In this document: positions 35,298-58,115 of the stretch, one piece after another | How positions within the stretch are numbered: the stretch's first letter is position 1 | Layout: each line of letters opens with the position of its first letter | Assembly: GCF_002592045.1 (NCBI RefSeq) | Contig: NZ_MEJG01000001.1 | Location: forward strand, 372,001 to 436,000 | Source: Parasaccharibacter apium | GTDB taxonomy: Bacteria; Pseudomonadota; Alphaproteobacteria; Acetobacterales; Acetobacteraceae | Length of the DNA: 64,000 nucleotides | Direction of reading: 5' to 3' | Made by a program: the position numbers and the translations under genes | The notes under the pieces: generated by a model | The model's input: only the letters and a program-made list of their open reading frames with translations | What the model was told of the DNA's origin: nothing | Databases searched by the model: none

Positions 35298-38200
35298 TCA
35301 GAAGCTCACATTCACACTGCCTGTGGCACCACTCTCGATGGAGTGGTTGCCATATTGACCGATATAGGAGAGGTCTACCCCCACACGGTCCGTCACCTTC
35401 GCGGTAATACCCGCATCCGTCACAGCGGCATTGCTAGAAAGCAGAACACCAGCAACATCCATCGTGTTCGTTCCACCACCAGCAACAAAGCCCTCATGCA
35501 GCCCAGGCCGCAGACGCCCAAACCCATGACGATACGCACCCATAATATGCGGCATAAAAACAGCCTTACCAATATTCAACCGCGTTGCCGCACGGAAGCC
35601 AAAGGTGGAGAAGGTCACACCCTGATCCGTCCCCCGGCTGCGTAAGGCCGCATCATTGCCATGCTCACGGAAGCTGTTCGTCTGCATATTGACGTAAGCC
35701 ACATTCATAAAGGGTTCGACCACTGTACGGCCTGCGCGCAGCTTATAGCCTAGCTCCGCATAGGCTTGCGCTGTACCGCCCAGATAGCTGCTCCGCACAC
35801 GGCTGCCATAATCCCCAACGGCAATTTGACGGCGCGTGTTAATCACATTCCAACTATAATCGGCCCCTAAACGAAGGTTCAGCCGCCCCCAATGCGTCCC
35901 CGCATAGGCCCCAACAGAGATATTATTGCTGTTACCAGAGGAGGACCGCCCACGCTCAACATTAAATTGAGAATGACCATAGGAGAGCAGCCCACCAACA
36001 CGCCAATGACTATGGTTGATGGGTGCATCCGCCCCTACGATAAAGCCTGCCGTATTATGGTGCATCAGCGCGGCATTACCATCCCCGCTATTATGGCCTA
36101 AGCCCCCATAAGCTTGGCCCCAGAGGACAGCATGATCAGAGTAGCAAGCCCCATTCTTTTGATGGGTTTTAAGGTCATAAACACTCTGCCCATTACGGCC
36201 ATAATCACAATCTGCATTGGCGAGGCGGTTCATAACGGCATTGCGAAGATAGAAGCTATCCTGGATTAACGCTGTGCGGATGGAGGCATGTAACTCACCC
36301 GAGAGGTTATCAAGCGCGCGGCGGGCTTGGTCTTTGGTCAGGCCCGTTAAGGCTGTCACCAGCCCACTCCCTGTCCCAACATGGCTTACCCCTTGGCCAG
36401 CCGTCACCTCATTACGCGTCCCGCCAATATCACCAAAGCCAGTGCTATTGCGCTTCAACACAATATCCACCGCATCAGCACTATAAGCAAGGGTCGGGTC
36501 CAGATACGCATATTGTGCAGCGAGATTAGTCGTCAGCCCACTAAATTGACCGCTCACCCCTTGTGTGGCTGTCAGAACACGATAGGCCTCGCCATAGGCT
36601 AAACCTTCTCCCGCATTCTTAACAATAAGGTCTAACGTTCCGCCCGCTAAGTTTGCCTTGCCCGTAACAGCCAGACGGTCAGAGGTTAGTTCGTTATACC
36701 CATCCCCCTTTGCCGTGGTCAGGCTCTGGCCTGTCACATCGCTTGTACCATTGATGCGAAGGATAGAGCCTTTCGCCATGCTCACATCACCCGTGACGTG
36801 AAGCGTCCCCAGGCCACTCTGCGTCGAGATCCCCGGTGCAATAACGCCGCCACTCTCAACATGCGTCTCGCCAACACTCCCCACACCACGTAACAGACCA
36901 TCTTGCTGAACGGTCAACAACCCGTTCCCAGTTGCGCCATTTACTTCCAGCGTTGCTCCATCGGGAACCATTGTCGGGCCAGAATAATCATTCATACCCG
37001 TTAAGACCTCGTGCCCTTTTGCAACGACTATCCCACCATTACCGGATAAGGAACCACTATACGTATCCTGTGCATTAGTAAGTGTTAAAATGCCATTCAA
37101 CGTCCCCCGTCCCGCTCCAGACAACGATTGCGCTTGGGAATCCCCTGCAACTGTAAGATCATTATTATTAATCAACCTGCCTTGGATAATAGCTTTATTT
37201 AACGTCATGCTCCCATTATTGGTGGCAGAGGCTACAGTAGCTCCGTTAGTAAGGTTGGACGTACCATCGTTAACTAACGTCCCTGCCAATGTACCGCTAT
37301 TTAGATCCAACCCCGCCCCTTTGGCCACGCTCGTAGCCCCTGTGAAACGGTTCTGGCCGGTCAATGTTTCTGTCCCACCAGTAATATTCACTCCAGCTGT
37401 GCCAGAAAGTGAGCCACTATAACTATCCTTAGCGTTCGTTAGGGTAAGCCCCCCCTCTAACGTCCCATCGCCCTTGCCAGCCAAGGACCCCAATTGGGCA
37501 CCATCTGTTCCAACAGTAAAATTACCATCATTGGTCAATGTACCTTGGACAGTCGCCTTATCTACTGTCATGCTGCCATCATTGGTAACAGACGCTACAT
37601 GAGCCCCATTCGTCACACTAGAGGTGCCACTATTAGCCAACACACCAGCTAATGCACCACCATTCACGTTCAATCCCGCTCCTTTTGCCACGGTCGTAGC
37701 ACCCGTGAAGCTATTTTGACCGGTGAGAGTCTTGGTGCCAGCGGCGATGGTCAACCCACCACTCCCAGCGATGGTGCCATTATAATCATTCTGTGAATCA
37801 GCATCTGTGAGCGTCAAACTATTCCCACCTAATGCCACTGTCCCATCACCACGCAGGTCCGTCACAGATAATGGCGTACTACTCGCTTGGCTAATATCAA
37901 ATTGTGCCTCCTTCTTAACATCCACATAGGATGAAGGCGCAATACTCCCACTACCAGCCAAGGCTAATGTACCATTTTCAATAATCGTATGGCCTGTATA
38001 CGTATTAGCCCCTGTCAGAGTTTGTGTCCCCGTTCCTATTTTAACGAGGCTCCCGCCTGTATCATTACTCGCCCCACCATCTTTTATGACCGCACCAAGT
38101 ACATCATTTTTATTAAGACCACCGAGCGTTAACGTCTTACCTCCTAACGATACAGTCCCCCCCTCACCAGAAAGAGACCCAATAGAAAGGCCATTTGTAT

Positions 38201-40850
38201 CCATCTTGGAAAGATCTATTTTACCTCTCTGCTGATTGACAATACTAGCCGTATCAGCCGTCGTGTTATTAGAGAAAGATAAATTACCAACATTCTTGAT
38301 CGTAGAGGATCCAGCAGTGCTATTATCTGTGAAAGTCAGCGTAGAGTTATCCTCATCATTGTTTATTGTTGCATTGCCTGCTGTACTATTATTATGGAAT
38401 GTAGTTATATTTGTTCCTTTATTTATTATTGTTGAATTTTCAGCAGAACTATTGTCATAAAAGTTCAATGATGCATTATATATGTTCGATATCGATGCAT
38501 GGCCTGCCCCCGTATTGTTATAAAAATTAACTTGAGAATCATGACCATAATTTGCCTTATTAAATATATTAGCACTATCAGCTGTGCTTTTATTATATAA
38601 ATTAAGGTAACCACCATCAACAGTCACCGTATGATGACCTAATGTAGCTGATGCTTGACCACCATCACTAGGCACACCATTCATATTCACTGTGGAGTTA
38701 CTGATAAAAACATTCCCTCCTTGTGTTGTCGCATCCGACAACCCAAAAGGCGTAGCATCATTCGCATTTACCGTGACATTAGGCGTGCGCCATGTACCAG
38801 GCCCCACAATATACGTATCTCCTGTATAGGTATTATCCTTATTTAAATTAATAACTGAATTTCCATCATTACTATTGGATATAAAAATACTTCCTGGACC
38901 AATAATAGGTGCATTGGTATCATAGGTATGACCATTAAGATCAATACCATAACGATAGCCACCATATGTATTTTCATTATGACCTGAATGATTAGACGGG
39001 CCAAGAATAATTGTCCGCCCCACCTCGTTCGTAATATCAGCGCCAAGTTTTAATATACCACCATCAATATCAATAGATGTACCCTGCTGCCCCAAGCTTT
39101 GATCAGAGGCAATTTGAAGGATACCATTATTAATAGCTGTCCCACCCGTATAGCTATTATTGCCGTTTAAAATGAGTGTTCCCGTATCTGTTTTTACAAG
39201 AGTTGTAGAATTATTGGGATCATCTGTAATATTTGTATCAATAATAGCCGTTTGACCATCACCAAAAGACGTTCCATTCCCTACACGAATAATCGAAGCA
39301 GACCCCGTTTTATTAAAGAGGAGACCTGTTTTCTGCTCATCACTTACACTACCCTGATTAGTGATAGAGAATATATTATTGTTATACTGGTTCCCATTTA
39401 AAACAATAAGACTATCATCACCTTTGGACAACACATGATAAGTAGATTGACTTCCACCCTGTCCATTACCTTCTGGCGCAAATTGCATACCCGCAACTTT
39501 TACCGTTCCATCTACTGTAATATTACCGCCATTATGCTCAAAAATAGCATAGCTATTTTCATTCCACGCGGCATTATTTGTCCCCTGAATTGTCGTCCAA
39601 TTTGTTGGGGCACCCTCTCCTTGCTTCCATACGCCATCTCCTCCCTCAACTTGACCTGTTGAACTCACATGGGAGCCGTCCCAGAAAGTAAGCTTATCTT
39701 CAGCGTTGGTTTGGATAAAATTAACTTGATGCTGCCCCGTCTGAAGAGCACTTAAATCAGGTCGTGCCCCCTCACCATTTACAGCCAATACAGTATTCTG
39801 CCCTATATTAAGATTTCCACCATAATTATACAGCGTACGAATACCCGACCCCAATTGCGTTTGAAGCGGAGCTACATAAATAGTACCATTTAAATTAAGA
39901 TTTTCAGTAACGTTAATAACACCACTGCCCTGCTTTCCAGAGCCATTATCACCTATATTAAGAAAACTAGAATTTCCATTCATATTTAAATTACCTGTAA
40001 CCGTTAAATAACTACGTGGGTTACCAGGTATAGCTGGAGCAATAGTACCACCAGACTCTACATCTATATCATGTCCCGCAGAGCCAATACTCCCCGTACC
40101 CTGCAAAAGGCCACTGCTCTCAACCGTTACATGAGATGTTCCCGTTATATTACCATAAACATTTAAAGAACCACCGTTCTGGACACGCGTCTCCCCCGTA
40201 TATGAAGCCCCATTATAAACATCAACATATTTAGCCTTGGCTATTAAACTAATATTTCCTTCAATATTCCCGCCAAATCCTTCTTTTGTTCCACTAATTA
40301 CAAGCGTACCACCATTACCTTTAACATTGGTTTGAGTTGTAGCATCAGTTGATGTAATATTTAATGTATTAGCACCAATATCAACCGTTGTACCTGCCGT
40401 GCTTCCCCAGTCTCCACCAAGGCTCGTAATATTTACAGGGCCTTGCGCTTGCGAAATATCAAATGTACTGCCACCACTCATAGCTACCCCGCTAGAATGG
40501 GCAATACTCCCCTCCCCCGATAGAGCAAGAGTCCCCTGCTCGATATTTGTATTCCCCGTATAGCTATTAACAGCCGACAATATAGTCGTACCTGCACCAT
40601 TCTGCACGAGAGTAACAGGCGCATCCGCCTTATCAGTGATAGGAGACGTTACAGTCTGCGTCTCGCCTTGGGCTGGTGTATAAGTTTCAACATTACCCTC
40701 CGCCGCATATACAGAGGACCCCACAAGTGACAGAGTGGAAACCCCCGCCATAAGAATTACACATCGAGCAGAAGCTCTAAGCGGAAAACAATCGGATACA
40801 GTCCGCAGAAAAAACGGAGATCTACGATGCAATCCACAGTACTTCGCCAT
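35298..40850 (-). CDS. Giant autotransporter adhesin with C-terminal beta-barrel
   Basis: A 1850-residue type Va autotransporter. The N terminus is an extended signal peptide (about 50 residues, cleavage near SVYAA). The passenger is a predicted beta-helix rich in Gly, Asn, Ser and Thr, with repeated PATR-type motifs such as NSYTGNTNIEQGTLALSG, NTYTGHTIIENGTLALAG and NSFTGATTVAKG. The middle (residues about 743-870) holds a tandem array of Asn/Ser/Thr repeats. The last 284 residues form the autotransporter barrel and end in SVNVSF, with the terminal Phe recognised by the Bam complex. It is likely a surface adhesin or biofilm factor. No protease or lipase triad was seen. Confidence 0.9.
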   Translation of the reverse strand: MAKYCGLHRRSPFFLRTVSDCFPLRASARCVILMAGVSTLSLVGSSVYAAEGNVETYTPAQGETQTVTSPITDKADAPVTLVQNGAGTTILSAVNSYTGNTNIEQGTLALSGEGSIAHSSGVAMSGGSTFDISQAQGPVNITSLGGDWGSTAGTTVDIGANTLNITSTDATTQTNVKGNGGTLVISGTKEGFGGNIEGNISLIAKAKYVDVYNGASYTGETRVQNGGSLNVYGNITGTSHVTVESSGLLQGTGSIGSAGHDIDVESGGTIAPAIPGNPRSYLTVTGNLNMNGNSSFLNIGDNGSGKQGSGVINVTENLNLNGTIYVAPLQTQLGSGIRTLYNYGGNLNIGQNTVLAVNGEGARPDLSALQTGQHQVNFIQTNAEDKLTFWDGSHVSSTGQVEGGDGVWKQGEGAPTNWTTIQGTNNAAWNENSYAIFEHNGGNITVDGTVKVAGMQFAPEGNGQGGSQSTYHVLSKGDDSLIVLNGNQYNNNIFSITNQGSVSDEQKTGLLFNKTGSASIIRVGNGTSFGDGQTAIIDTNITDDPNNSTTLVKTDTGTLILNGNNSYTGGTAINNGILQIASDQSLGQQGTSIDIDGGILKLGADITNEVGRTIILGPSNHSGHNENTYGGYRYGIDLNGHTYDTNAPIIGPGSIFISNSNDGNSVINLNKDNTYTGDTYIVGPGTWRTPNVTVNANDATPFGLSDATTQGGNVFISNSTVNMNGVPSDGGQASATLGHHTVTVDGGYLNLYNKSTADSANIFNKANYGHDSQVNFYNNTGAGHASISNIYNASLNFYDNSSAENSTIINKGTNITTFHNNSTAGNATINNDEDNSTLTFTDNSTAGSSTIKNVGNLSFSNNTTADTASIVNQQRGKIDLSKMDTNGLSIGSLSGEGGTVSLGGKTLTLGGLNKNDVLGAVIKDGGASNDTGGSLVKIGTGTQTLTGANTYTGHTIIENGTLALAGSGSIAPSSYVDVKKEAQFDISQASSTPLSVTDLRGDGTVALGGNSLTLTDADSQNDYNGTIAGSGGLTIAAGTKTLTGQNSFTGATTVAKGAGLNVNGGALAGVLANSGTSSVTNGAHVASVTNDGSMTVDKATVQGTLTNDGNFTVGTDGAQLGSLAGKGDGTLEGGLTLTNAKDSYSGSLSGTAGVNITGGTETLTGQNRFTGATSVAKGAGLDLNSGTLAGTLVNDGTSNLTNGATVASATNNGSMTLNKAIIQGRLINNNDLTVAGDSQAQSLSGAGRGTLNGILTLTNAQDTYSGSLSGNGGIVVAKGHEVLTGMNDYSGPTMVPDGATLEVNGATGNGLLTVQQDGLLRGVGSVGETHVESGGVIAPGISTQSGLGTLHVTGDVSMAKGSILRINGTSDVTGQSLTTAKGDGYNELTSDRLAVTGKANLAGGTLDLIVKNAGEGLAYGEAYRVLTATQGVSGQFSGLTTNLAAQYAYLDPTLAYSADAVDIVLKRNSTGFGDIGGTRNEVTAGQGVSHVGTGSGLVTALTGLTKDQARRALDNLSGELHASIRTALIQDSFYLRNAVMNRLANADCDYGRNGQSVYDLKTHQKNGACYSDHAVLWGQAYGGLGHNSGDGNAALMHHNTAGFIVGADAPINHSHWRVGGLLSYGHSQFNVERGRSSSGNSNNISVGAYAGTHWGRLNLRLGADYSWNVINTRRQIAVGDYGSRVRSSYLGGTAQAYAELGYKLRAGRTVVEPFMNVAYVNMQTNSFREHGNDAALRSRGTDQGVTFSTFGFRAATRLNIGKAVFMPHIMGAYRHGFGRLRPGLHEGFVAGGGTNTMDVAGVLLSSNAAVTDAGITAKVTDRVGVDLSYIGQYGNHSIESGATGSVNVSF
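37008..37366 (-). repeat. Passenger repeat B (about 120 residues)
   Basis: This unit, starting LTGQNRFTGATSVAKG, is a divergent copy of the adjacent unit at 37367-37728. Both carry the same order of motifs: TNGA, NGSMT, GxLxN, SLxGxGxGTL, LTNAxDxYSGSLSG. Confidence 0.75.
37367..37728 (-). repeat. Passenger repeat A (about 120 residues)
   Basis: The unit starts LTGQNSFTGATTVAKG and is the neighbour of repeat B. The two are alike over their whole length at protein level and recognisably so at DNA level. Confidence 0.75.
38240..38620 (-). repeat. AT-rich short tandem repeats in the passenger
   Basis: The encoded protein cycles through units of about 18-20 residues with the pattern NxSTAxxATIxNxxxxxLxFxDN. 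The DNA here is visibly more AT-rich than either end of the gene. Each unit fits one turn of a beta-helix. Confidence 0.65.
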
Positions 40851-47706: not shown

Positions 47707-48782
47707 ACAGCCACACACCCTTCAAAACCACGCTGCAACTGGGCACGGTCTAACTTACGCCCGATAAAGACAATGCGTGATTGCTTCGCCTCACCCTCCT
47801 TAAACGGGCCAATCATCGCGCCATCGGCCATCATATGCACCGCCTGAAAAGCAAATCGCTCCTCTTGGCCTTTAAAGTGTAAAATCCCTTTAGCTCGCAA
47901 AATATCCGGCCCTTGCTCCTGCAAAATAAGCCCTATCCACGCATTAAAGCGTTCTTCATCCAAAGGAGCCGTAACGGTGAAAGAATGGCTCGTTACATCC
48001 TCATTATGGGCGTGATGATGCCCCCCTGCCCCATGCTCATGATGATGGTCATGGCCGTGGTGATGGCCGTGTTCATGTTCATGCTCATGCTCATGCTCAT
48101 GGTCGTGATGATGGTGGTGATCATCTTCCTCTAGGAAGTCCGGCATGGTGGTCAAAGCCCGTTTGAGGTCAAACCCACCACGGTTCAGAATATCCTCCAA
48201 CGCCACATTGCCCCGCTCAGCACGATGAATCCGCACAACGGCATTAATGGCTTTTAACTTCTGCTCCACCGCAGCAAGGCCCGCCTCATCAAGCAAATCA
48301 CATTTATTGAGGATAATCACATCCGCAAACGCTACTTGATTCACCGCCTCTGGGCTTTCTTTAAGCGTTTGCAGCACATTATAAGCATCCACCACTGTTA
48401 CCACAGCATCCAGCTCTGCCTTTTCGCGAATCCCGGCATCAACAAAAAAGGTCTGCGCAACAGGGGCTGGGTCTGCAAGGCCGGTAGTCTCTACAATAAT
48501 GCCATCAAACTTGCCGCGCCGGCGCAAAAGACGGCTTAGAATCCGGATTAAATCCCCCCGCACCGTGCAGCAGATGCAGCCATTATTCATCTCAAAGACT
48601 TCTTCATCCGCATCCACAACGAGGTCATTATCAATGCCCAGCTCGCCAAACTCATTCACCACAACAGCGTAATTACGCCCGTGATCAGCCGTTAGAATAT
48701 GGTTTAGCAAGGTCGTCTTACCCGCGCCTAAAAAGCCAGTCAGAACGGTAACGGGGATTTTGCGGTCCTGCATATCAGCCAT
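47703..48782 (-). CDS. COG0523 (CobW-like) metal-binding GTPase with His-rich loop
   Basis: A 359-residue GTPase of the G3E/COG0523 family. The P-loop is GFLGAGKTT (residues 16-24), the metal motif is GCICC (C69, C71, C72), and the guanine motif is NKCD (159-162). Residues 222-259 are a His-, Glu- and Asp-rich loop, a strong metal reservoir typical of zinc chaperones. The C-terminal CobW_C domain follows. ATG 48782 (MADMQDRK) is preferred over an upstream in-frame start at 48803. Zinc is the likeliest metal, given the loop and the CDF genes nearby; cobalt cannot be excluded. Confidence 0.9.
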   Translation of the reverse strand: MADMQDRKIPVTVLTGFLGAGKTTLLNHILTADHGRNYAVVVNEFGELGIDNDLVVDADEEVFEMNNGCICCTVRGDLIRILSRLLRRRGKFDGIIVETTGLADPAPVAQTFFVDAGIREKAELDAVVTVVDAYNVLQTLKESPEAVNQVAFADVIILNKCDLLDEAGLAAVEQKLKAINAVVRIHRAERGNVALEDILNRGGFDLKRALTTMPDFLEEDDHHHHHDHEHEHEHEHEHGHHHGHDHHHEHGAGGHHHAHNEDVTSHSFTVTAPLDEERFNAWIGLILQEQGPDILRAKGILHFKGQEERFAFQAVHMMADGAMIGPFKEGEAKQSRIVFIGRKLDRAQLQRGFEGCVAV

Positions 48783-48946
48783 GAGGGTTATCCTTCTCTC
48801 CAAAAACGAGAGCCATTATACGCCTCCTCCCGCGCAATACCAAAAAGAAGAACAGACGCTTGCATCACCCCCATCCCCCGCCCCATATGGGAAGGAGGCC
48901 GTTACCCTCATAAGCACGGCCCTCACTTTCTAATGGAGACAAACCT

Positions 48947-49936
48947 ATGAATGAAAACACCATTCTCATTCCCGGTTTTGACAAACCCGTATCACGCGTT
49001 GCCCTAGGCACATGGGCCATTGGTGGCTGGATGTGGGGCGGCCCTGATGATGATAATGCCGTCCGCACCATCCATCGCGCGTTAGATGAAGGGGTGGACC
49101 TCATCGATACAGCGCCCGTTTATGGGTTTGGTCACTCCGAAGAAGTGGTAGGCCGCGCTTTGGCTGAAAAACCCCATAGAGCCCGCGTTGCCACCAAACT
49201 AGCCCTAGATTGGAAGGACGATCACAAGCCTTTCCGCAACTCCAGCCCTGCCCGTATCCGTAAGGAAGTGGAAGATTCCCTCCGCCGCTTACGGGTAGAG
49301 ACCATCGACCTTGAACAAGTCCATTGGCCAGACCCTAACACCCCCATTGAGGACACAGCACGCGAGCTGCAAAAGCTCCATAAAGAGGGCAAGATTCGCG
49401 CACTCGGGGTGAGCAATTACTCCCCAGAGCAAATGGACATCTTCCGCGAGGTTGCGCCGCTGGCAAGCGTTCAATCACCTTACAACCTCTTTGAGCGCGA
49501 GATTGAAAAAGACGTCCTGCCTTACGCAAAAGAGCATAAACTTGCCCTGCTGGCTTATGGGCCGCTCTGCCGTGGCTTACTGACTGGCAAAATGACAGCG
49601 GATAAAACCTTCCCCGAGAGCGACCTCCGCTCTGGTGATCCGAAGTTCCAAAAGGAGCATTTTAAGGACTATCTCGCCGCTGTAGATGATTTAAAGAAAA
49701 TCGCAGACCGGCACGGTAAGTCGCTCATGGTGCTCGCCATTCGCTGGGTGTTAGACCAAGGCCCAACCATTGCTCTATGGGGCGCACGCAAACCAGAGCA
49801 AATTGACGGTGTGGCTGATGTCTTTAACTGGCAGCTCACCGCACAGGATAAGAAGGAGATTGACGCTATCCTTCATCGCCACGTTCCCACACCTATCGCG
49901 CCTTCCTTTATGGCACCCCCAGCCCGGAAGTCATAA
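48947..49936 (+). CDS. Aldo/keto reductase
   Basis: A 329-residue aldo/keto reductase with the catalytic tetrad D54, Y59, K84 and H126 visible in LIDTAPVYG, ATKLA and LEQVHWPDP. The GVSNYSPEQMD segment and the C-terminal LWGARKPEQ NADPH-binding region match the AKR fold. Such enzymes reduce sugar-derived aldehydes and ketones, suiting a sugar-oxidising bacterium. The exact substrate is unknown. A strong terminator follows, separating it from the Hint cluster. Confidence 0.9.
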   Translation: MNENTILIPGFDKPVSRVALGTWAIGGWMWGGPDDDNAVRTIHRALDEGVDLIDTAPVYGFGHSEEVVGRALAEKPHRARVATKLALDWKDDHKPFRNSSPARIRKEVEDSLRRLRVETIDLEQVHWPDPNTPIEDTARELQKLHKEGKIRALGVSNYSPEQMDIFREVAPLASVQSPYNLFEREIEKDVLPYAKEHKLALLAYGPLCRGLLTGKMTADKTFPESDLRSGDPKFQKEHFKDYLAAVDDLKKIADRHGKSLMVLAIRWVLDQGPTIALWGARKPEQIDGVADVFNWQLTAQDKKEIDAILHRHVPTPIAPSFMAPPARKS

Positions 49937-49966
49937 TCCCTCCCATACACCCCAAACTGCAATAAT

Positions 49967-50000
49967 ATGGCCGGAATCCCGTAAGATTCCGGCCATTTTT
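49967..50000 (+). terminator. Intrinsic terminator after the aldo/keto reductase
   Basis: A 12-bp perfect stem, ATGGCCGGAATC (49967-49978) with GATTCCGGCCAT (49985-49996), is followed by a T-run. Confidence 0.9.
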
Positions 50001-50176
50001 ATATGATTATCTACAGCATACACTCTGTCCAAAATTGCCATACTTTCGTCAAAAAATAGAACATACGTCATTATAACACCTTCTCTTCTCCCGAATCTCT
50101 CCTCAACTTTGCCATAAATAAACCATTAATATTTTTTACTAGACGATACGTAACTCAACATGGTCAGTCCTATTGT

Positions 50177-50183
50177 AGGAGAG
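50177..50183 (+). promoter_or_regulatory. Ribosome site deciding the start of the first Hint gene
   Basis: AGGAGAG lies 6 bases before GTG 50190. The start then aligns with those of the two paralogues (the proteins begin a few residues before the conserved PVV block), unlike the ATG at 50160. Confidence 0.65.
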
Positions 50184-50189
50184 ACGTAC

Positions 50190-51824
50190 GTGCCTGGTGA
50201 TCCCCAACCTGTCGTTACACTTGGTTCCTATCTTGTTAACTTCACTTCCCTTACGATTGATAAATCTCAATCTACCGCAAATGGTTTAGAATTTGGGCCG
50301 GGCAGCCTCTCAAACCAGCTCTATAGCGTAAAAGCGACATTCACGACCCATATCCCTACCGGCCCTAACGACCAAAGGGTGCAAGATTTTGTCATTCAGG
50401 ACCCTAAAACGGGGAAGGTCCTCATTAGGGGTAGTTACGACTATTCCTGGGGTAATAAGGCTGTTAATGGCTTCATTATTGGTGACGGCCAGGGGCAATA
50501 TTATCTTATATCCTCTGCCGTGCCAGGGAGCTCCTCCTCCACTATCCCAGGTGAAGTGCTGCTTAACCCGTGGCAGACTTCCTATGGCTATGTTTATAAA
50601 TGGAGACAACCTTGGTCGGTAGGGAACCATTTTACCCTTAATTTGAATGGTTGCTATTATACATTCCGTCAAGATGACTGCGGAACTGCAACGGATGGCT
50701 CCTTGGGCGAGCCATTTACCTTCAATACATGCTTCTTAGCTGGCAGCCTTATTAAAACCCCAACAGGGTACAAAAAGGTAGAAGAGCTAAAACAAGGCGA
50801 TATGGTTGTGACCTACAACCATAAAACAGACGCTATGCAGTCACAGCCCCTCACCTGGGTTGGGCGCAGTCACGCATCGGTCAATACCACCCTACCCATG
50901 GATATGGCGGGCTATCCTGTTTGCATCAAAAAAGACGCCCTAGCCGATAATATCCCCTCTCAGGACCTTTTCGTCACGGCAGAACATTGCCTGTTTTTTG
51001 ATGGCTTCTTTGTCCCAGCCCGGATGATGGTCAACGGACAATCAATCTATTTCGACACAACAATTTGCACCCCTCACGATATTTTCCATATCGAGACAGA
51101 GGAACATAGCGTCATCATTGCCAATAATGTCATGACAGAGAGCTATCTCGACACAGGCAATCGCCATACCTTTATACCATCCTCTCCAGCCACTCAGCAT
51201 GAAAACGTCATTGTACATCCACATGCTACGAAGAAGCTATCCTGGCACGAACATGCTGCTGCACCATTATGCACAACACAGGAGTTTGTAGCACCCCGCT
51301 ATCATAACCTCCTCCAACGTGCTGCAGACTTAAACGTCCCCATTCAGCATCCTTACAAAGCAGAAGTGCTTTCTGAGGATCCCAACTTCCACTTACTCAC
51401 TGATCAAGGGCGCATTTTGCGCGAACAACATACCTCCAACGGTTATAAGACCTTCGCCATCCCTCCCGATACGAAGTATCTTACACTCATCTCCAAAACC
51501 AGCCGCCCAGTCGATGTGCACGGCCCTTATGTAGATGATAGACGTTCATTAGGTGTTCTCATCGGTGAGATACTCTACTTCCAAGGTGGCCACTCACGTA
51601 ATATCGACGCCCATCTCACTACACAAACGCTAGACGGATGGTGGGCTTTGGAGGATGCGCCTCTCCGTTGGACAAAAGGAGCAGCCTTCTTGCCCCTCCC
51701 AGCTGAGCCCTATTTTGATGGGCTAAAAACTGGGTTGCTCGCTATCAAAGTCGTCGCTGGTGGGCCTTATCTTGAAGAAGATACCCCCTCCCTAGAGCCT
51801 TATCGCTTCAATAAAGCAGGCTAA
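50190..51824 (+). CDS. Hint-domain protein 1 of three tandem paralogues
   Basis: A 544-residue protein in three parts. The N-terminal domain (1-180) contains GSYDYSWGNKAVNGFIIGDG. The Hint module (about 181-322) begins at C181 in FNTCFLAGSLIKTPTGYKK, the intein A-block with a catalytic-type Cys, and carries the B-block TAEH (263-266). The C-terminal domain (about 365-540) has PLCTTQ, VPIQHPYK, DVHGPYVDDRR and LRWTKGAAFLPLP. There is no signal peptide or transmembrane segment. Hint modules of hedgehogs and inteins cut or splice at the Cys; whether this one does is inference. Such proteins are frequent in acetic acid bacteria, but I know of no established role. Confidence 0.82.
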   Translation: MPGDPQPVVTLGSYLVNFTSLTIDKSQSTANGLEFGPGSLSNQLYSVKATFTTHIPTGPNDQRVQDFVIQDPKTGKVLIRGSYDYSWGNKAVNGFIIGDGQGQYYLISSAVPGSSSSTIPGEVLLNPWQTSYGYVYKWRQPWSVGNHFTLNLNGCYYTFRQDDCGTATDGSLGEPFTFNTCFLAGSLIKTPTGYKKVEELKQGDMVVTYNHKTDAMQSQPLTWVGRSHASVNTTLPMDMAGYPVCIKKDALADNIPSQDLFVTAEHCLFFDGFFVPARMMVNGQSIYFDTTICTPHDIFHIETEEHSVIIANNVMTESYLDTGNRHTFIPSSPATQHENVIVHPHATKKLSWHEHAAAPLCTTQEFVAPRYHNLLQRAADLNVPIQHPYKAEVLSEDPNFHLLTDQGRILREQHTSNGYKTFAIPPDTKYLTLISKTSRPVDVHGPYVDDRRSLGVLIGEILYFQGGHSRNIDAHLTTQTLDGWWALEDAPLRWTKGAAFLPLPAEPYFDGLKTGLLAIKVVAGGPYLEEDTPSLEPYRFNKAG

Positions 51825-51861
51825 ACACACAACCATAAGTAGAGTTACCCTTCATTATTCA

Positions 51862-51896
51862 GGGCAGCGGAATCAATAATTCTGCTGCCCTTTTTC
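51862..51896 (+). terminator. Intrinsic terminator after Hint gene 1
   Basis: Stem 51862-51873 with 51879-51890 (12 pairs, one wobble, outer arm GGGCAGC/GCTGCCC), followed by a T-run. Confidence 0.88.
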
Positions 51897-52177
51897 TTTG
51901 TCTCATCGCCCTATACCCTTTGCAAGACAGCACATAATCACAACCAAAAAGACGCAAAATAGACTATAAACCAACTAAAAGATGGCATAATCAAAATTTA
52001 TAAACACATTATCAAACAACAATGCACACTGAGACTACGAAAAAACTACACTCATTTAGACTCTAACGCTATGATTCTTTATTGCGAATCTATTTCCGTT
52101 AATTTAATGTAAATTCATTCTTAACTTTCTAGGAAGATCAGCTTCCAGCTCCCTTCCCTCCTTCGGAGTCCGTTCCC
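51897..52177. other. AT-rich leader of Hint gene 2
   Basis: About 280 bases of AT-rich DNA with no reading frame of interest. It must hold the promoter of Hint gene 2, but no clear -35/-10 pair stands out. CGGAG lies just before the GTG start. Confidence 0.45.
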
Positions 52178-53779
52178 GTGTCTAACCCCAGGCCAGTCGT
52201 TACTCTCGGTACCTATAGCATCAATGTAGCAGCCCTCACCGTGGATAAGTGTGGGGTCGGACATCTGTCGGACCAACGCTTTTGTGTAAAAGCTACATTT
52301 ACGACGCATACTGCAACGAGTTCTTCTGACAAGAAAGTACAAGACTTCTGCTTTACCGACCCAAAAACGGGACGAACCATTAAAGGAAGTTACGATTACT
52401 CATGGGGCAATAAAGCTGTTAATGGCTTTATCATCGGTGATGGCTCGGGTGGTTACTACCTCATTACATCAGCACGGCCAGGTAGTTCATCCTCCAAAAT
52501 TCCGGGTTATACACTACTCGACCCTTGCAGAGCTTCTTATTGTTACGTCAACAAACCATATGAGCCATGGTGTAAAGGGAATTTCTTTATCCTCAACCTT
52601 AACGGCTGTGTTTATTACTTTACACAAGATAATAGCGGCTCCGCCACTGACGGATGCCTAGGCTGGTGCTTTACATTTGATACATGCTTCCTTGCTGGCA
52701 GCCTTATCGAAACACCTGAGGGCTATAAGAAGATTGAAGCCCTTGCTTGCGGGGATATGGTCATGACCTACGACCCCATTTCCCAGCAAAAAACGCCACA
52801 GCCCATCACATGGCTTGGCCATGGTCAGGTCAATATTGATCCGACACACCCGTTGGATATGGCGGGATACCCCGTTCGTATTACAAAAAATGCGATCGCT
52901 GCAGGCATTCCTTTTGACGATCTACTCGTCACTGCGGAGCATTGCCTCTTTTTCGAAGGGCACTTTGTCCCAGCACGTATGATGGTTAACGGCCGTTCAA
53001 TTTATTTTGAAACGTCAGAAACCGTCCCCTCCACATACGATATTTATCACCTCGAAACAGAGACCCATAATATTCTCTCTGCAAATGCGGTCCTCACGGA
53101 AAGCTATTTGAACACGGGTCACCGCGATAACTTTGAAACTATTAGCCAGACAGACACTGTCACGCCGCTTTCCCCCTCACAAAAGCTTTCATGGCAACAT
53201 GATGCTGCAGCACCCCTCTGCACAACCCAAGCCTTTGTCGAGCCGCTCCATCGCGCCATGCTAGAGCGCGCCGAGCGCTTAGGCGTGCCACTCCAACATC
53301 CTTACAAATATGACAAACTCTCTGATGATCCCGAGTTTGCCCTCATGACCGACCAAGGCGATATACTGAGAGAACAACGCACGACAAATGGCTACAAACT
53401 ATTCACCGTGCCACGGCAAACCCGCCAAGTTACACTCGTATCCCGAACAAGCCGTCCTTATGACGTCCATGGCCCCTTTGTTGATGATAGACGCCAGCTC
53501 GGCATACTCGTTGGCGAGATCACCTATTTCAAAAATGGACAATCCCACGCCATTACCGACCATCTCACCACACCGGACCTAGATGGTTGGTTGGAATTGG
53601 ACCCCACGGCAAATGGCCTACGCTGGACAGAAGGCACAGCCATACTTCCCTTACCAGATGATAACCAAGAGCACAGTGTAGGCCATGGGTTACTTGCTAT
53701 CAAAGTCGTAACGGCAGGCCCTTATCTAGATCAATCATATTTCTTATCGGAGGCTGAGAATCGATACATCGCCGCATAA
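52178..53779 (+). CDS. Hint-domain protein 2, cysteine-rich N-terminal domain
   Basis: A 533-residue paralogue of the genes on both sides, starting GTG 52178 (MSNPRPVVTLG). The Hint module begins at C170 in FDTCFLAGSLIETPEGYKK; the B-block is TAEH (252-255) and the module ends near ESYLNTGHR. The C-terminal domain repeats the family motifs (PLCTTQ, PLQHPYK, DVHGPFVDDRR, LRWTEGTAILPLP). What differs is the N-terminal domain: up to and including C170 it has ten Cys residues, where paralogue 3 has one and paralogue 1 has three. The fold is shared, so the Cys have been added or kept selectively. Function unknown. Confidence 0.82.
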   Translation: MSNPRPVVTLGTYSINVAALTVDKCGVGHLSDQRFCVKATFTTHTATSSSDKKVQDFCFTDPKTGRTIKGSYDYSWGNKAVNGFIIGDGSGGYYLITSARPGSSSSKIPGYTLLDPCRASYCYVNKPYEPWCKGNFFILNLNGCVYYFTQDNSGSATDGCLGWCFTFDTCFLAGSLIETPEGYKKIEALACGDMVMTYDPISQQKTPQPITWLGHGQVNIDPTHPLDMAGYPVRITKNAIAAGIPFDDLLVTAEHCLFFEGHFVPARMMVNGRSIYFETSETVPSTYDIYHLETETHNILSANAVLTESYLNTGHRDNFETISQTDTVTPLSPSQKLSWQHDAAAPLCTTQAFVEPLHRAMLERAERLGVPLQHPYKYDKLSDDPEFALMTDQGDILREQRTTNGYKLFTVPRQTRQVTLVSRTSRPYDVHGPFVDDRRQLGILVGEITYFKNGQSHAITDHLTTPDLDGWLELDPTANGLRWTEGTAILPLPDDNQEHSVGHGLLAIKVVTAGPYLDQSYFLSEAENRYIAA

Positions 53780-53811
53780 ACGGCACCTATTTTCAGGAGA
53801 GACAAGAACTC

Positions 53812-53852
53812 GTGAGACAATGGAGTGCTTAAACGGCCCACTCTGTTGTCTC
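53812..53852 (+). terminator. Hairpin after Hint gene 2
   Basis: A 15-bp stem with two G-T wobbles, 53812-53826 with 53838-53852 (TGAGACAA... with ...TTGTCTCA). It lacks an immediate T-run, so efficiency is uncertain. Confidence 0.5.
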
Positions 53853-54296
53853 ATTCCACCTTGAGATAAATATAACCTTACTTTTTTGTGATCGAATCTA
53901 AAATAATCATCCTTATTTAATAAAAATTTCACAACGACATCCTCGCAGAGAATGAGTATAATAAATAAAATATATTGAAATTTATAAAAATCCCATCATT
54001 TTACATATATAAAATAAGGTTATAAAATTTTAGCCATTAGATAGCGCGTAACTTCAATTCATTTTACAATAAAACAAAACAAATGAAAAACTTTCCATGT
54101 TATATTATGGTAATACTTTTAATAATTTATGAACTTGTTTTTGGCTATTGTGTATTGATTGGGTGAAAAATTTTTATTCATAATAATCATACTCTAACCT
54201 TCTTAAAATTACGATATATCTTGCATATCTCTTCCTCTTGATATACTTATCTGAAAATCTTCTACTCCTTTAAATAATTTCGGAGACCGCGTCACC
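53853..54296. other. Strongly AT-rich intergenic stretch before Hint gene 3
   Basis: About 440 bases without a plausible gene, visibly far richer in A and T than the rest of the window. It ends in CGGAG, the ribosome site of the third Hint gene. Several TATA-like strings are present but none can be assigned as promoter with confidence. Confidence 0.55.
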
Positions 54297-55907
54297 ATGA
54301 CCGACAATAACCCACGCCCCGTTGTTGCTGTTGGTGATTACCAGATTAATTTTGCCACATTACGACTAGACTCTAATGGCTTTGGCACTCTCTCCAACCA
54401 ACATTATAACGTCCAAGCCACCTTTACCACACATACATCTACAGGCCCTTCAGACCTAAAAGTCCAAGACTTCACCTTTACAGACACCAAAGGGAATGTT
54501 ATTAAAGGAAGCTACGATTATTCTTGGGGAAACAAAGCTATCAACGGTTTTATCATTGGTGATGGCTCTGGCGGTTATTACGTTATCACCTCTGCTATAC
54601 TTGGCAGTTCATCCTCTACAATCTCGGGTGATCAACCAATCAACCCCAGTATGACCCAATATAACTACCCCTACCCTTTCGGTAACATCCCGGGAGATTG
54701 GGCAACTGCTAACTTCTTTTTCCTTAATCTAAATGGCACAGTGTACGCGCTCCGGCAGGATAATAGTGGCACTGCGACTGACGGTCAGATTGCCAACCCT
54801 AGTACCCATGCCGACAACCAATTTACGTTTGATACATGCTTCCTAGCTGGTAGCCTCATCGAAACACCAGACGGGTATAAAAAAATAGAAACCCTAAAAG
54901 CAGGCGATATCGTCCTAACTTACGACCCTCAGAATAACCGTAAATCCCCACAACCCATCCAATGGGTCGGACAAAGTACCGCAAAAATTACCCCTAACAC
55001 ACAGCTCGAAATGGCCGGATACCCCGTCAAAATCTCCAAAAACGCTATCTCAGAGGGCGTCCCACATCAAGACCTCCTCATCACACCAGAGCATTGCATC
55101 TTCATCAATGGTAATTTCATCCCCGTCCGTATGCTCGTAAATGGACAATCAATCTTCTTCGACACAGCCACAGACAAAAAAGAATACCCCATCTACCATA
55201 TCGAAATGCAAAAACACTCCATCATTTGTGCAAATGGCCTCCTCTCAGAAAGCTATCTCGATACAGGAAATAGACATACCTTCACTAACTTAAACGACCC
55301 TACCGACGTCATATCACTGCACAATACAAAACAACTCTCTTGGGAAAAGGATGCCGCTGCCCCTCTCTGTACAGACCAAAATATCGTCGAGCCTTTGCAT
55401 CACGAAATCCTAACACGCGCACAAAAACTCAAAATGCCCGTCCAACACCCCTATAAGGAAGAACAACTAACAGACGACCCCGCCTTCACCATCATGACAG
55501 ATGATGGAACTATCCTGCACCAACAACGCGTCGTCAATGGATACGCTATCTTCTCCGTGCCAAGCCATGCTACCCAGGTCACGCTGCTCTCAAATGTAAG
55601 CCGCCCTTGTGACGTCAAAGGTCCTTTCGTCGATGATAGACGGCAATTAGGGGTCCTCATCGGCCATATCACTTACTTCCACAGTGGACAATCTCACGAC
55701 ATCTCCACCCATCTGACGACCCCAGACCTCCAAGGATGGAACACGCTAGAAGAAAATACTGGCCTCCGTTGGACCAAAGGCGCTGCAAAACTCCCGCTCC
55801 CCGTCCAAAACCATAGCAATGAAGCAGGATTGCTCGCTATCCAAGTCGTAACAGGGGGGCCATATGCCGCTCCCAAACCATTCCTCTTCAGCCAAAAAGT
55901 CGCTTAA
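54297..55907 (+). CDS. Hint-domain protein 3
   Basis: A 536-residue paralogue starting at ATG 54297 (MTDNNPRPVV). The N-terminal domain (1-180) has GSYDYSWGNKAINGFIIGDG but no Cys before the Hint start. The Hint module opens with C181 in FDTCFLAGSLIETPDGYKK; its B-block is TPEH (263-266), with Pro where the other two copies have Ala. It ends near ESYLDTGNRHTF. The C-terminal domain matches the others (PLCTDQ, PVQHPYK, DVKGPFVDDRR, LRWTKGAAKLPLP). Codons are somewhat more AT-rich than in copies 1 and 2. A terminator follows. Confidence 0.82.
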   Translation: MTDNNPRPVVAVGDYQINFATLRLDSNGFGTLSNQHYNVQATFTTHTSTGPSDLKVQDFTFTDTKGNVIKGSYDYSWGNKAINGFIIGDGSGGYYVITSAILGSSSSTISGDQPINPSMTQYNYPYPFGNIPGDWATANFFFLNLNGTVYALRQDNSGTATDGQIANPSTHADNQFTFDTCFLAGSLIETPDGYKKIETLKAGDIVLTYDPQNNRKSPQPIQWVGQSTAKITPNTQLEMAGYPVKISKNAISEGVPHQDLLITPEHCIFINGNFIPVRMLVNGQSIFFDTATDKKEYPIYHIEMQKHSIICANGLLSESYLDTGNRHTFTNLNDPTDVISLHNTKQLSWEKDAAAPLCTDQNIVEPLHHEILTRAQKLKMPVQHPYKEEQLTDDPAFTIMTDDGTILHQQRVVNGYAIFSVPSHATQVTLLSNVSRPCDVKGPFVDDRRQLGVLIGHITYFHSGQSHDISTHLTTPDLQGWNTLEENTGLRWTKGAAKLPLPVQNHSNEAGLLAIQVVTGGPYAAPKPFLFSQKVA

Positions 55908-55917
55908 AATCAAATAT

Positions 55918-55950
55918 GGCGGCCCGGTAATGGGGCCGCCTTCTATTTTT
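55918..55950. terminator. Intrinsic terminator after Hint gene 3
   Basis: Perfect 8-bp GC stem, GGCGGCCC (55918-55925) with GGGCCGCC (55933-55940), then TTCTATTTTT. It also lies just behind the convergent lipoprotein gene. Confidence 0.85.
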
Positions 55951-56656
55951 ATTGTCCAATTGTTTTCACAGAGCTAGGCAAGCCTAACTCTTGACGATCA
56001 CTTAGAGTTGGCGTCCAGTCCTCAACACGCGTATTGAGCGACCCCTCCCCGTGGAATTCCCTTAACCGTTTTTGGGAATGTTTGCTGATATGCTTATGGA
56101 GGTGCGGATGCTTCCTCCGCGCTAAGCGACTAATATCCACCTCTACTTGCCGTGTCGTGACATCACTCTCAGGCGAAAGTGCAAGAGCACTCCACACAAA
56201 AGCAGGCGGAACAACATTATATTGTGAACGCCCGCCCGATTGAGCGGCAGCGTCATCATGGATAGAAAATTGCGGGCGAATGACAAGGAGCCAATTCCCC
56301 TCCGGCAAATTATTAAACACAAGCCGGCACCCCGACCCTAAACTTACACGGCGTACTAGTGGCTCTGCCTGATGTCCTAGCTTTTCTTTAAAGCCCACTT
56401 GCGCCAAATCAACACGCAAATAATTCCGATAAAATTTTGTATCAGGCAACAACATCACATCTTTTTCAGCCACGTTACACTGTAATGCTTGGTGCAAACC
56501 ATCATTACCAACAACCTGAACGGCCAATGTTTTATTGCCAGGATTCTTTGCCCATGCCACTTGGTCTGGCTTAAAATTTGTATTGTAGCCATCACAGCCA
56601 CTTACTAACAACGTTAACCCCATAAGGGCACAAAGAGTATATTTATAATGTTTCAT
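55949..56656 (-). CDS. Predicted lipoprotein of unknown function
   Basis: A 235-residue protein with a lipoprotein signal: MKHYKYTLCALMGLTLLVSG then C21 (lipobox LVSGC). The mature part is beta-rich with VRRVSLGSGCRLVFNNLPEGNW and a basic His/Lys/Arg-rich segment near residue 180-205 (HPHLHKHISKHSQKR). I recognise no domain. It is convergent with Hint gene 3 and shares its terminator region, and is divergent from the DUF2272 gene. Confidence 0.65.
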   Translation of the reverse strand: MKHYKYTLCALMGLTLLVSGCDGYNTNFKPDQVAWAKNPGNKTLAVQVVGNDGLHQALQCNVAEKDVMLLPDTKFYRNYLRVDLAQVGFKEKLGHQAEPLVRRVSLGSGCRLVFNNLPEGNWLLVIRPQFSIHDDAAAQSGGRSQYNVVPPAFVWSALALSPESDVTTRQVEVDISRLARRKHPHLHKHISKHSQKRLREFHGEGSLNTRVEDWTPTLSDRQELGLPSSVKTIGQ

Positions 56657-56780
56657 TCTACTTACACCTTCTCCACTATCGTAAAGTCGCTAAACGCCTC
56701 TTGTCTTTACCTTGTAAAAACAGTTTACTCTTTACCTCATATACGTCAGAGATAGCCAATAAAGCAACATAGGGCCTATC

Positions 56781-57731
56781 ATGCAGACCATTTCTTCTTC
56801 TCGTCCCCATGCTTCTTCCTCTTTCCGCCAGAACAAAAACTCCGTAAAAAAGATTATATCGTTATACGGGCTCATGCTGCTCGCAGCCTGCGCTAACTCA
56901 CCCAAAAAACCTGCCCTTACTCCTATGAGCCAGTATGCAGACGGCCATACCGGCCCTTTAGGGTATGACGACCACGTCCCCGCCTTTGCGAGCGAAAATT
57001 TCGCTCCCTTTAACCGCCAAGATGTCGCTGCGATCGCCCTGCGCGAATGGCGGATGTTCGGCAGCCCCGTAGCCGATGCAGACCCCCATGACCGGCCAGA
57101 ACCAAGCAGCCCCGCCCTCAAGCCTGAACGCCTCCCCGGCCTATGGCAGCGCATTGGGGAATATTGGTGGATAGGCCAACCCCCTGAGGAAACAGAGAGC
57201 CGTTGGACAGGCCGCACAGACGGTGATGGCCGCCTCTTCCCCGCCGCTAAAGATGGTAATTATGCGTGGTCTGCGGCCTTTATTTCGTACGTTATGCGCG
57301 TAGGGGGGGCGAATATTCGCTTCCCATATTCGCCTAACCACGCCACCTATATCAATGTCGCTGCCTCTGGCAATAATCCGGGCATCACAGCGCAAAATCC
57401 CGCCTCTTACGCCCCACAACGCGGGGATATACTCTGCGTAGGGCGGGGACGGAGCAGCAGCATCACCTTCTCTATGCTGCCCACCCCTTACGGCTTCCCC
57501 GCCCATTGCGGCATTGTTGTTGCTACAGGCCAAAATGCCGAGCCTTTCGGGCGGGAAATCAGCATCATTGGTGGGAATGTGGATGATGCTGTCGCCCTCA
57601 CCCATGTCCCAACCGATGCAAGCGGCCATGTCAGCAGCCCAGAGGGCCAAAGCTATGATAGCCGCTACCCGTGGTGCGTCATCCTTACCCCCCGCTATGA
57701 GGCCGAGACAGACCCTAATAGCGGGCAATAA
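56781..57731 (+). CDS. DUF2272 lipoprotein
   Basis: A 316-residue protein with a lipobox (LLAAC, C37) after an unusually long polar start of about 24 residues; a later true start is possible but no better ATG is seen. The mature part matches DUF2272: WSAAFISYVMRVGG near residue 160, a PQRGDILCVGR block, and FPAHCGIVVA. These resemble the NlpC/P60-like papain fold, with His-Cys elements that may be catalytic. A cell-wall hydrolase role is inferred from the fold, not shown. It is divergent from another lipoprotein gene. Confidence 0.8.
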   Translation: MQTISSSRPHASSSFRQNKNSVKKIISLYGLMLLAACANSPKKPALTPMSQYADGHTGPLGYDDHVPAFASENFAPFNRQDVAAIALREWRMFGSPVADADPHDRPEPSSPALKPERLPGLWQRIGEYWWIGQPPEETESRWTGRTDGDGRLFPAAKDGNYAWSAAFISYVMRVGGANIRFPYSPNHATYINVAASGNNPGITAQNPASYAPQRGDILCVGRGRSSSITFSMLPTPYGFPAHCGIVVATGQNAEPFGREISIIGGNVDDAVALTHVPTDASGHVSSPEGQSYDSRYPWCVILTPRYEAETDPNSGQ

Positions 57732-57743
57732 GGCAAAGGAGGC

Positions 57744-58115
57744 CTATTTTACAGGGAGGCCACAGGCCTTCCACCCCGTGCCGGGGCCGTGCTTATCCTC
57801 AAAACCATCAGCGACATTAGTGAGCGTTTGGTACCCAGCCTGCGCAGCTAATGTCGCCGCCTTTTGCGAGCGCACACCAGAGCGACAAATGAAGAAAAGC
57901 GGCGTGGCCTTATCCGGCACCGCTTGCTCTAAGGCATGAATAAACTCAGCCTCGCTCCCCGCTCCCCATGTTAAAGCGACAAGCTTCCTGCCTATGCTAC
58001 CAAGCTCTGGCATGCCCACCTGTGCCCATTCCTCTGGCGTACGGACATCAACCAATACGGCTTGCGCCTCATTTTGCAAGCTGGACCATACCTCTTTTGC
58101 AGTGCTTTGTTTCAT
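57744..58115 (-). CDS. Rhodanese-like sulfurtransferase domain protein
   Basis: A 123-residue single rhodanese domain with the active-site loop CRSGVRS (C77), the start VLVDVRTPEEW, and the end region YQTLTNVADGFE. Such proteins carry a persulfide on the Cys and donate sulfur. It is cytosolic (no signal). It lies divergent from cysK, a sulfur-assimilation gene, which fits but does not prove a link. Confidence 0.88.
   Translation of the reverse strand: MKQSTAKEVWSSLQNEAQAVLVDVRTPEEWAQVGMPELGSIGRKLVALTWGAGSEAEFIHALEQAVPDKATPLFFICRSGVRSQKAATLAAQAGYQTLTNVADGFEDKHGPGTGWKACGLPVK

Follow-up and report, generated by a model that had tools for sequence, protein, structure and literature searches.

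Three tandem Hint-domain proteins of Parasaccharibacter apium as putative hedgehog-like precursors with exchangeable passengers

What are three adjacent genes for Hint-domain proteins doing in the genome of a honeybee-associated bacterium? The question is raised by a stretch of 64,000 nucleotides from Parasaccharibacter apium (RefSeq assembly GCF_002592045.1, contig NZ_MEJG01000001.1, positions 372,001 to 436,000), referred to here as the window, which comes from a 1.85 Mb genome of the honeybee-associated genus Bombella. A preliminary description had seen in the array three paralogues with a shared N-terminal domain, a Hint module that might release, splice or ligate its flanks, and a C-terminal domain; it had proposed structure prediction and a survey of the Acetobacteraceae, and had ranked the locus as a candidate undescribed system. 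Judged from sequence comparison, the trio is real and is best read as a hedgehog-like form of a Hint family already on record. The alignments and a structure model show a Hint fold with a conserved active site from which the splicing residues have been lost, exchangeable front parts, here called passengers, and a conserved C domain. The reading that we favour, with moderate confidence, is that each protein is a hedgehog-like precursor in which the Hint Cys would free or transfer the passenger in a single-turnover reaction.

The three genes lie on the + strand downstream of an aldo/keto reductase gene, and their frames, listed at 554, 533 and 536 aa, are all intact. They were placed using the list of open reading frames (ORFs) and Pfam, with inspection for protein 1, and their domains by alignments, Pfam and motifs, supplemented for protein 3 by the model and Foldseek. 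Each protein consists of an N (passenger) domain of approximately 170-180 residues, the Hint_2 module and a C domain of approximately 200-225 residues. Protein 1 (50190-51824) is assigned a GTG start, which on inspection has an AGGAGA-type site upstream and agrees with the starts of the paralogues, and the frame is also open from an ATG at 50160; its N domain occupies 50190-50729, the Hint module 50730-51143 (Cys1 codon 50730-50732, ending Glu-Ser) and the C domain 51144-51821. Protein 2 (52178-53779, GTG start) divides into an N domain at 52178-52684, a Hint module at 52685-53104 (Cys1 codon 52685-52687) and a C domain at 53105-53776. For protein 3 (54297-55907, ATG start), the corresponding parts are 54297-54836, beta-rich in the model, 54837-55253 (Cys1 codon 54837-54839) and 55254-55904, where a helix is followed by a beta domain. 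As first described, the C-terminal motif VDDRR is found in all three and is joined by LRWTKG, LRWTEG and LRWTKG in copies 1, 2 and 3, respectively.

The paralogy is clear, as identity among the copies is 55-60 % from end to end, far above chance. Because synonymous sites are saturated or nearly so (proportion of synonymous differences, pS, 0.75-0.77) while the proportion of non-synonymous differences is low (pN 0.27-0.29), the trio is a set of old duplicates kept under purifying selection, neither a recent nor a decaying array. The spacing ahead of copies 1, 2 and 3 is 253, 353 and 517 nt, respectively (copy 1 counted from 50190). The terminators reported behind copies 1 and 3 were recovered by a consensus scan as strong + strand hairpins at 51861-51891 (13 pairs, T-rich tail) and 55918-55940 (8 G-C pairs), making separate transcription plausible; the same scan, the only method applied, listed no + strand terminator hairpin in 53780-54296, after copy 2. 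An Rfam search of 48000-58000 gave no match.

All three proteins belong to Hint_2 (PF13403), with E-values of 2.6e-32, 2.4e-29 and 9.3e-32 and scores of 112.7, 103.1 and 110.9 bits against a curated cut-off of 28.4, over profile positions 1-146 of 147. The Cys at the TC junction (residue 191, 170 and 181 as translated) and block B (TAEH, TAEH and TPEH) are intact, as had been claimed, and of the hallmarks of the Hint superfamily, Cys1 with block-B Thr/Ser-x-x-His is present in all three and the fold in the model of protein 3. Conservation was assessed in a family alignment of 43 rows, which leaves out redundant loci and pieces <250 aa and has the Cys1-less paralogues outside the set, and in which equivalence to the intein blocks is by motif. 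Three rows miss the Cys1 column, two being cut by the locus end and one a fragment (L056), and Cys1 is present in all 40 that reach it. Block B has Thr/Ser in 42/43 and His in 42/42, and both block-F His residues are found in 43/43. The residue preceding Cys1 is variable, Thr being commonest (16/40). At the end of the module, the position of the intein His-Asn is taken by Glu and then Ser/Thr in every row; block G is thus absent, and the C-terminal His-Asn of inteins and type A bacterial intein-like (BIL) domains is lacking. In one relative (L137:550-1710), the Hint module is interrupted right after block A by consecutive Asp-Gly dipeptides, which add 22 alignment columns and could be a length-variable repeat.

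The structure of protein 3 was modelled from 26 rows (mean predicted local distance difference test score, pLDDT, 82; predicted template modelling score 0.66); an earlier 16-row model was poor (pLDDT 60) and was left uninterpreted. The prediction is confident for the Hint and C domains, with pLDDT mostly 80-97 per ten residues in the Hint region. The top Foldseek matches are the BIL domains 6tmm/6y75 (E 1.6e-6) and 2lwy, followed by inteins, Vint (8r2c) and hedgehog (1at0; template modelling (TM) score 0.49, E 0.012). BIL domains and inteins fill the first nine places among the PDB matches (TM score to target 0.61-0.70), and the viral models matched are Hint proteins of giant viruses and phages. 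A PDB profile search using the Hint module plus C domain as query found 2lwy, over block A only.

Neither the N nor the C domain of the trio has a Pfam match above cut-off, and PDB profile searches with the C domain alone or the N domain alone gave no credible match. However, the idea that the C domain is a peculiarity of this locus is not supported, since a C-domain profile matches in 86/120 genomes of the family, behind other passengers, compared with 96/120 for PF13403. Six of its residues, Asp460, Arg462, Leu464, Gly465, Trp504 and Gly507 (protein 1, translated from 50160), are invariant in 43/43 rows. Matches reach 22 in a single genome of 2.9 Mb, and when compared by hand at the level of the genome, 84 of the 86 also have Hint_2, the exceptions (G024 and G138) being from one genus. 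In a draw of 299 genomes from the phylum, the C domain was found in four, three of them in the family, including the window genome itself, and the lone genome from elsewhere has Hint_2 in the same ORF. No convincing C-domain relative outside Hint proteins was seen among the ORFs of the loci fetched at that stage; a C-domain-like piece lacking Hint later turned up in both G024 and G138, in ORFs without a Pfam match. These pieces (L160:1447-2502 and L161:1372-2499) come from two genomes of one genus and are followed by a second shared region without a Pfam match, FESLGDDCELGF and FESLGEDCEFGF.

Relatives of protein 3 were found in 33/60 genomes, 32/36 in its own family and 1/24 outside it. The survey of the family revealed a widespread Hint-C module, and the unit also occurs on small plasmids of acetic acid bacteria: a 3.85 kb plasmid of Acetobacter pasteurianus 386B, on which the sole other listed gene is an IS6 transposase, a 10.7 kb plasmid of Commensalibacter melissae from honeybee and a 14.5 kb plasmid of Gluconobacter oxydans 621H (loci L162, NC_021979.1; L163, NZ_CP033088.1; L164, NZ_LT900341.1; the gene tables for these plasmids describe themselves as incomplete). 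The plasmid records already use the name 'Hint domain-containing protein'. Because the Hint-C unit is widespread in the family and PF13403 is known and annotated, Hint-C is best described, on present comparisons, as a widely distributed, database-annotated hedgehog-like variant and not, as initially suggested, as a unique undescribed system.

The N domains are distributed quite differently. The trio N domain was detected in 15/299 family genomes, among them a further genome of the same species as the window, and within the 43-row set it is confined to trio orthologues. All seven non-Bombella loci from the N-domain search also have the C domain. Outside the genus, the matches listed for protein 3 span mostly residues 180-525, and over 66 pairs the pairwise identity averages 0.55 in the N domain, 0.63 in Hint and 0.59 in the C domain. 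The frame ahead of Cys1 ranges from 150 to 561 residues in 37 Cys1 rows (7/37 are open at the 5' end), and a fourth Hint protein of the window genome, 1244 aa long, has 897 residues ahead of Cys1, with a repeat region that matches AIDA-I and strand-loop-strand profiles below threshold. In another relative (L038), the passenger contains repeats-in-toxin (RTX) repeats above cut-off. Hence, the Hint-C module is the general part and the N domain the local part, with exchangeable passengers ahead of a conserved unit. As relatives have RTX repeats or sub-threshold AIDA-type repeats, most likely the passengers are proteins of the surface or the extracellular space. Within the trio, the N domain of copy 2 (52178-52684) has nine Cys, compared to two and none in copies 1 and 3, and a calculated isoelectric point of 8.35, compared to 4.94 and 4.45.

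How might such a protein work? The Hint Cys would attack the preceding peptide bond and produce a thioester by an N-S acyl shift, and resolution of the thioester by water or another nucleophile would free the passenger or move it off Hint-C. Because block G is replaced, N-terminal cleavage or transfer is the expected outcome, and Hint-C would be left behind whole. Targeting of the precursor or presentation of an acceptor is the most likely role of the C domain, which stands where hedgehog has its sterol-recognition region; the trio would be a lineage-expanded set of small passengers processed via Hint. Of the Hint actions first envisaged, release or transfer of the N domain is supported as predicted chemistry, splicing is unlikely, and cross-linking of the N domain is possible.

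Parallels can be drawn with four known systems. The trio proteins lie far above the Hint_2 cut-off and share the Glu-Ser end with four Hint_2 members of a genome outside the family (G057), but those have a short tail whereas the trio proteins have a C domain of approximately 200 residues. As far as sequence goes, they resemble type B BIL proteins in having a Hint module without block G in a passenger-bearing bacterial protein, the C domain being extra. Type B BIL domains of Rhodobacter, which we take to belong to Hint_2, are reportedly able to cleave. The hedgehog/Hog order of passenger, Hint and C-terminal region is found here, together with exchangeable passengers and 1at0 among the fold matches; however, these are bacterial proteins and their C domain has no detected sequence or fold relation to the hedgehog region. 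Pretoxin Hint proteins (PF07591, e.g. MafB) are likewise secreted-type bacterial proteins with a Hint module, but in the MafB type the variable part lies behind Hint, whereas in the trio it precedes Hint and the C-terminal part is constant. According to PMC7664689 and PMC2362128, the hedgehog Hint performs the N-S acyl shift only, and the latter places a sterol- or adduct-recognition region behind it. Two further papers report an overrepresentation of PF13403, together with RTX, among fast-responding marine Rhodobacteraceae (PMC12487129) and, in a mutant that overproduces cellulose, a missense mutation affecting a Hint domain protein 'of unknown function' (PMC11999647). No functional study of the Hint-C module was found in the one open-access library searched, from which subscription journals are mostly absent.

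Several observations sit awkwardly with the precursor reading and its exported passengers. By inspection only, with no predictor run, no signal peptide was seen at the N termini of the trio; no secretion gene was found among the scanned neighbours, and the type I secretion operon of the window genome, with ATP-binding cassette (ABC), HlyD, Sel1-repeat and glycosyltransferase genes (L068:1414-9942, - strand), is on another contig, unlinked to the trio. The AIDA-like matches of the fourth protein score 36.4 and 20.3 bits against curated cut-offs of 1200 and 30. A comparison of B. apis with B. mellum gives 83 % identity in the N domain and 63 % in the rest, a poor fit with a freely varying passenger. 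Hint_2 proteins without a C domain occur in G057, the one non-family genome examined, and the C domain is therefore not required for Hint as such. The Hint-C proteins lack an RTX-type C-terminal end and RTX proteins lack a Hint-C-like one, and a catalytically dead paralogue, described below, indicates that a Hint-C protein can persist without chemistry.

Foremost among the alternatives is a B-type BIL that hydrolyses its passenger or makes its cut at either end; the C domain would then serve only in export or folding, and there would be no transfer to an acceptor. We regard this as possible but on balance doubtful. Type B BILs, which lack block G, cleave uncoupled from splicing according to PMC4031507, and Glu-Ser at block G is also seen in the four G057 proteins without a C domain (L121, L123, L125 and L128). 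An export signal at the C-terminus might also explain why the last residue is Ala, Gly, Ser or Val in 40/43 Hint-C proteins, compared to 106/301 control ORFs, although the residues ahead of the final two vary (the window proteins end at 51821, 53776 and 55904). The p value of 1e-13 for this excess is too small since the rows are related, the count without trio orthologues being 29/32, and the controls are mechanical frames of at least 250 aa, some of which may be spurious; nevertheless, the small last residue hints at a C-terminal signal. Against this, classic RTX ends differ: RTX ORFs of the family often end in DFxFA or WVKIV, and the last residue is small in 10/18 (frames picked by motif count from 28 loci, excluding nine running off the locus and one with Hint).

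Close orthologues of the ABC protein of the type I secretion operon (E below 1e-200, tallied by hand) occur in 28/36 family genomes, and a Hint-C match in 27 of these 28 versus 5/8 without one (p about 0.03 by hand, with no phylogenetic correction), which is weak evidence for a link. A second, peptidase-type ABC gene lies approximately 6 kb from a Hint gene in four genomes (G001, G002, G003 and G005), but other genes intervene in G001, the only one listed gene by gene, and the linkage was taken as chance. The C domain was found in 17/34 RTX-positive versus 51/66 RTX-negative genomes (p 0.007, uncorrected; G024 was set negative as its only C-domain match is outside a Hint protein), and RTX and the C domain thus tend toward mutual exclusion.

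A natural control is provided by a passenger-less Hint-C paralogue in three distinct contigs, with loci from IMG/VR (L195:5755-7011, L196:5866-7011 and L197:5782-7011). The L198 product is the same as that of L197, and L196 is 98.5 % identical to L197 in this region. Only about 35 residues separate the likely, inferred start from Hint (L145/L195, L196 and L142/L197). All three have other residues in place of Cys1, the block-B His (TPDQ), the two block-F His and the final Glu of the Hint module, and they lack the small C-terminal end, yet the C-domain motif KRRLGV is retained, with GRWTDG present in L142 and L145. As dN/dS, the ratio of non-synonymous to synonymous substitution rates, is 0.08-0.22 between copies, the paralogue does not resemble a pseudogene. 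An intact Hint-C gene lies approximately 0.9 kb downstream on the same strand in L195 and L197, with an opposite-strand ORF between; none was found downstream of the paralogue in L196. Because the paralogue without a passenger has lost the active site and kept the C domain, it is simplest to suppose that the active site is there for the passenger and that the C domain has a use of its own. Plain release leaves unexplained why the dead copy keeps the C-domain core and loses the small end. It could be proposed that the proteins form an Acetobacteraceae transferase family in which the C domain recognises a surface acceptor, passengers become covalently attached to the surface or coupled on it, and the dead, passenger-free Hint-C proteins act as partners in trans, but this we consider rather unlikely.

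The dead paralogues, being under purifying selection, lend something to a further proposal, that Hint is a structural scaffold without chemistry and that the proteins act intact in an adhesin-like manner. This is improbable, as 43 relatives with differing passengers show next to no variation at Cys1, Thr/Ser, the three His and Glu-Ser/Thr, and the active-site residues were seen to be lost only together. A true intein or A-type BIL, in which Hint would be spliced out and the N and C domains joined, finds agreement in the Hint fold and the block A and B residues, but splicing is unlikely because Glu-Ser/Thr replaces the terminal His-Asn in 43/43 rows, making Asn cyclisation unavailable, and the next residue is Tyr, Trp or Phe in 43/43, so that we give this explanation very little credence. 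Least credible of all is a polymorphic toxin with a C-terminal toxin released by Hint in the manner of pretoxins, for despite sub-threshold PT-HINT matches (copy 3, E 0.0028 and 18.3 bits against a cut-off of 27.7; copy 1, E 0.14) it is the N-terminal part that varies whereas the C domain stays constant in the family (43 rows), the array is followed by an opposite-strand lipoprotein-like ORF with no paired small ORF behind each copy, and there is no PADLOC match.

The array locus is syntenic in the Bombella loci that were fetched, with the same neighbours on both sides, and varies in copy number from one to three. B. mellum, B. intestini, B. favorum and strain B3987 have one copy, B. apis and B. 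pluederhausensis two, the window genome and B. saccharophila three, and B. dulcis a broken one. Over 13.7 kb, the trio region is 99.2 % identical to that of Bombella saccharophila TMW 2.2558; beyond B. saccharophila, identity is 79-95 % for most neighbours, about 50 % for the lipoprotein-like ORF and 50-60 % for the Hint proteins. The lipoprotein-like ORF (55949-56656, - strand, 235 aa, no Pfam match) adjoins the array, is about 50 % identical across several Bombella loci and has a weaker second copy in two (L074 and L075). Elsewhere in the window, 35298-40850 (- strand) encodes an autotransporter of 1850 aa that combines PATR repeats with an outer-membrane barrel. In Asaia astilbis (L082:7998-9955), the Hint part is on the + strand and a C-domain piece on the - strand; DNA inversion was considered, but no inverted repeats that would support switching were found and the arrangement resembles a broken gene.

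Returning to the hedgehog-like precursor, its interest lies in the occurrence of one Hint-C module after widely differing front parts across most genomes sampled from a family to which vinegar, cellulose and bee-associated bacteria belong, and in the dead paralogue, which makes the roles of Hint and the C domain separable. If covalent attachment to a surface acceptor were true, it would be a bacterial counterpart of hedgehog lipidation and sortase anchoring. If the favoured reading is true, the cleavage or transfer activity would represent a new natural means by which surface proteins are released or attached.

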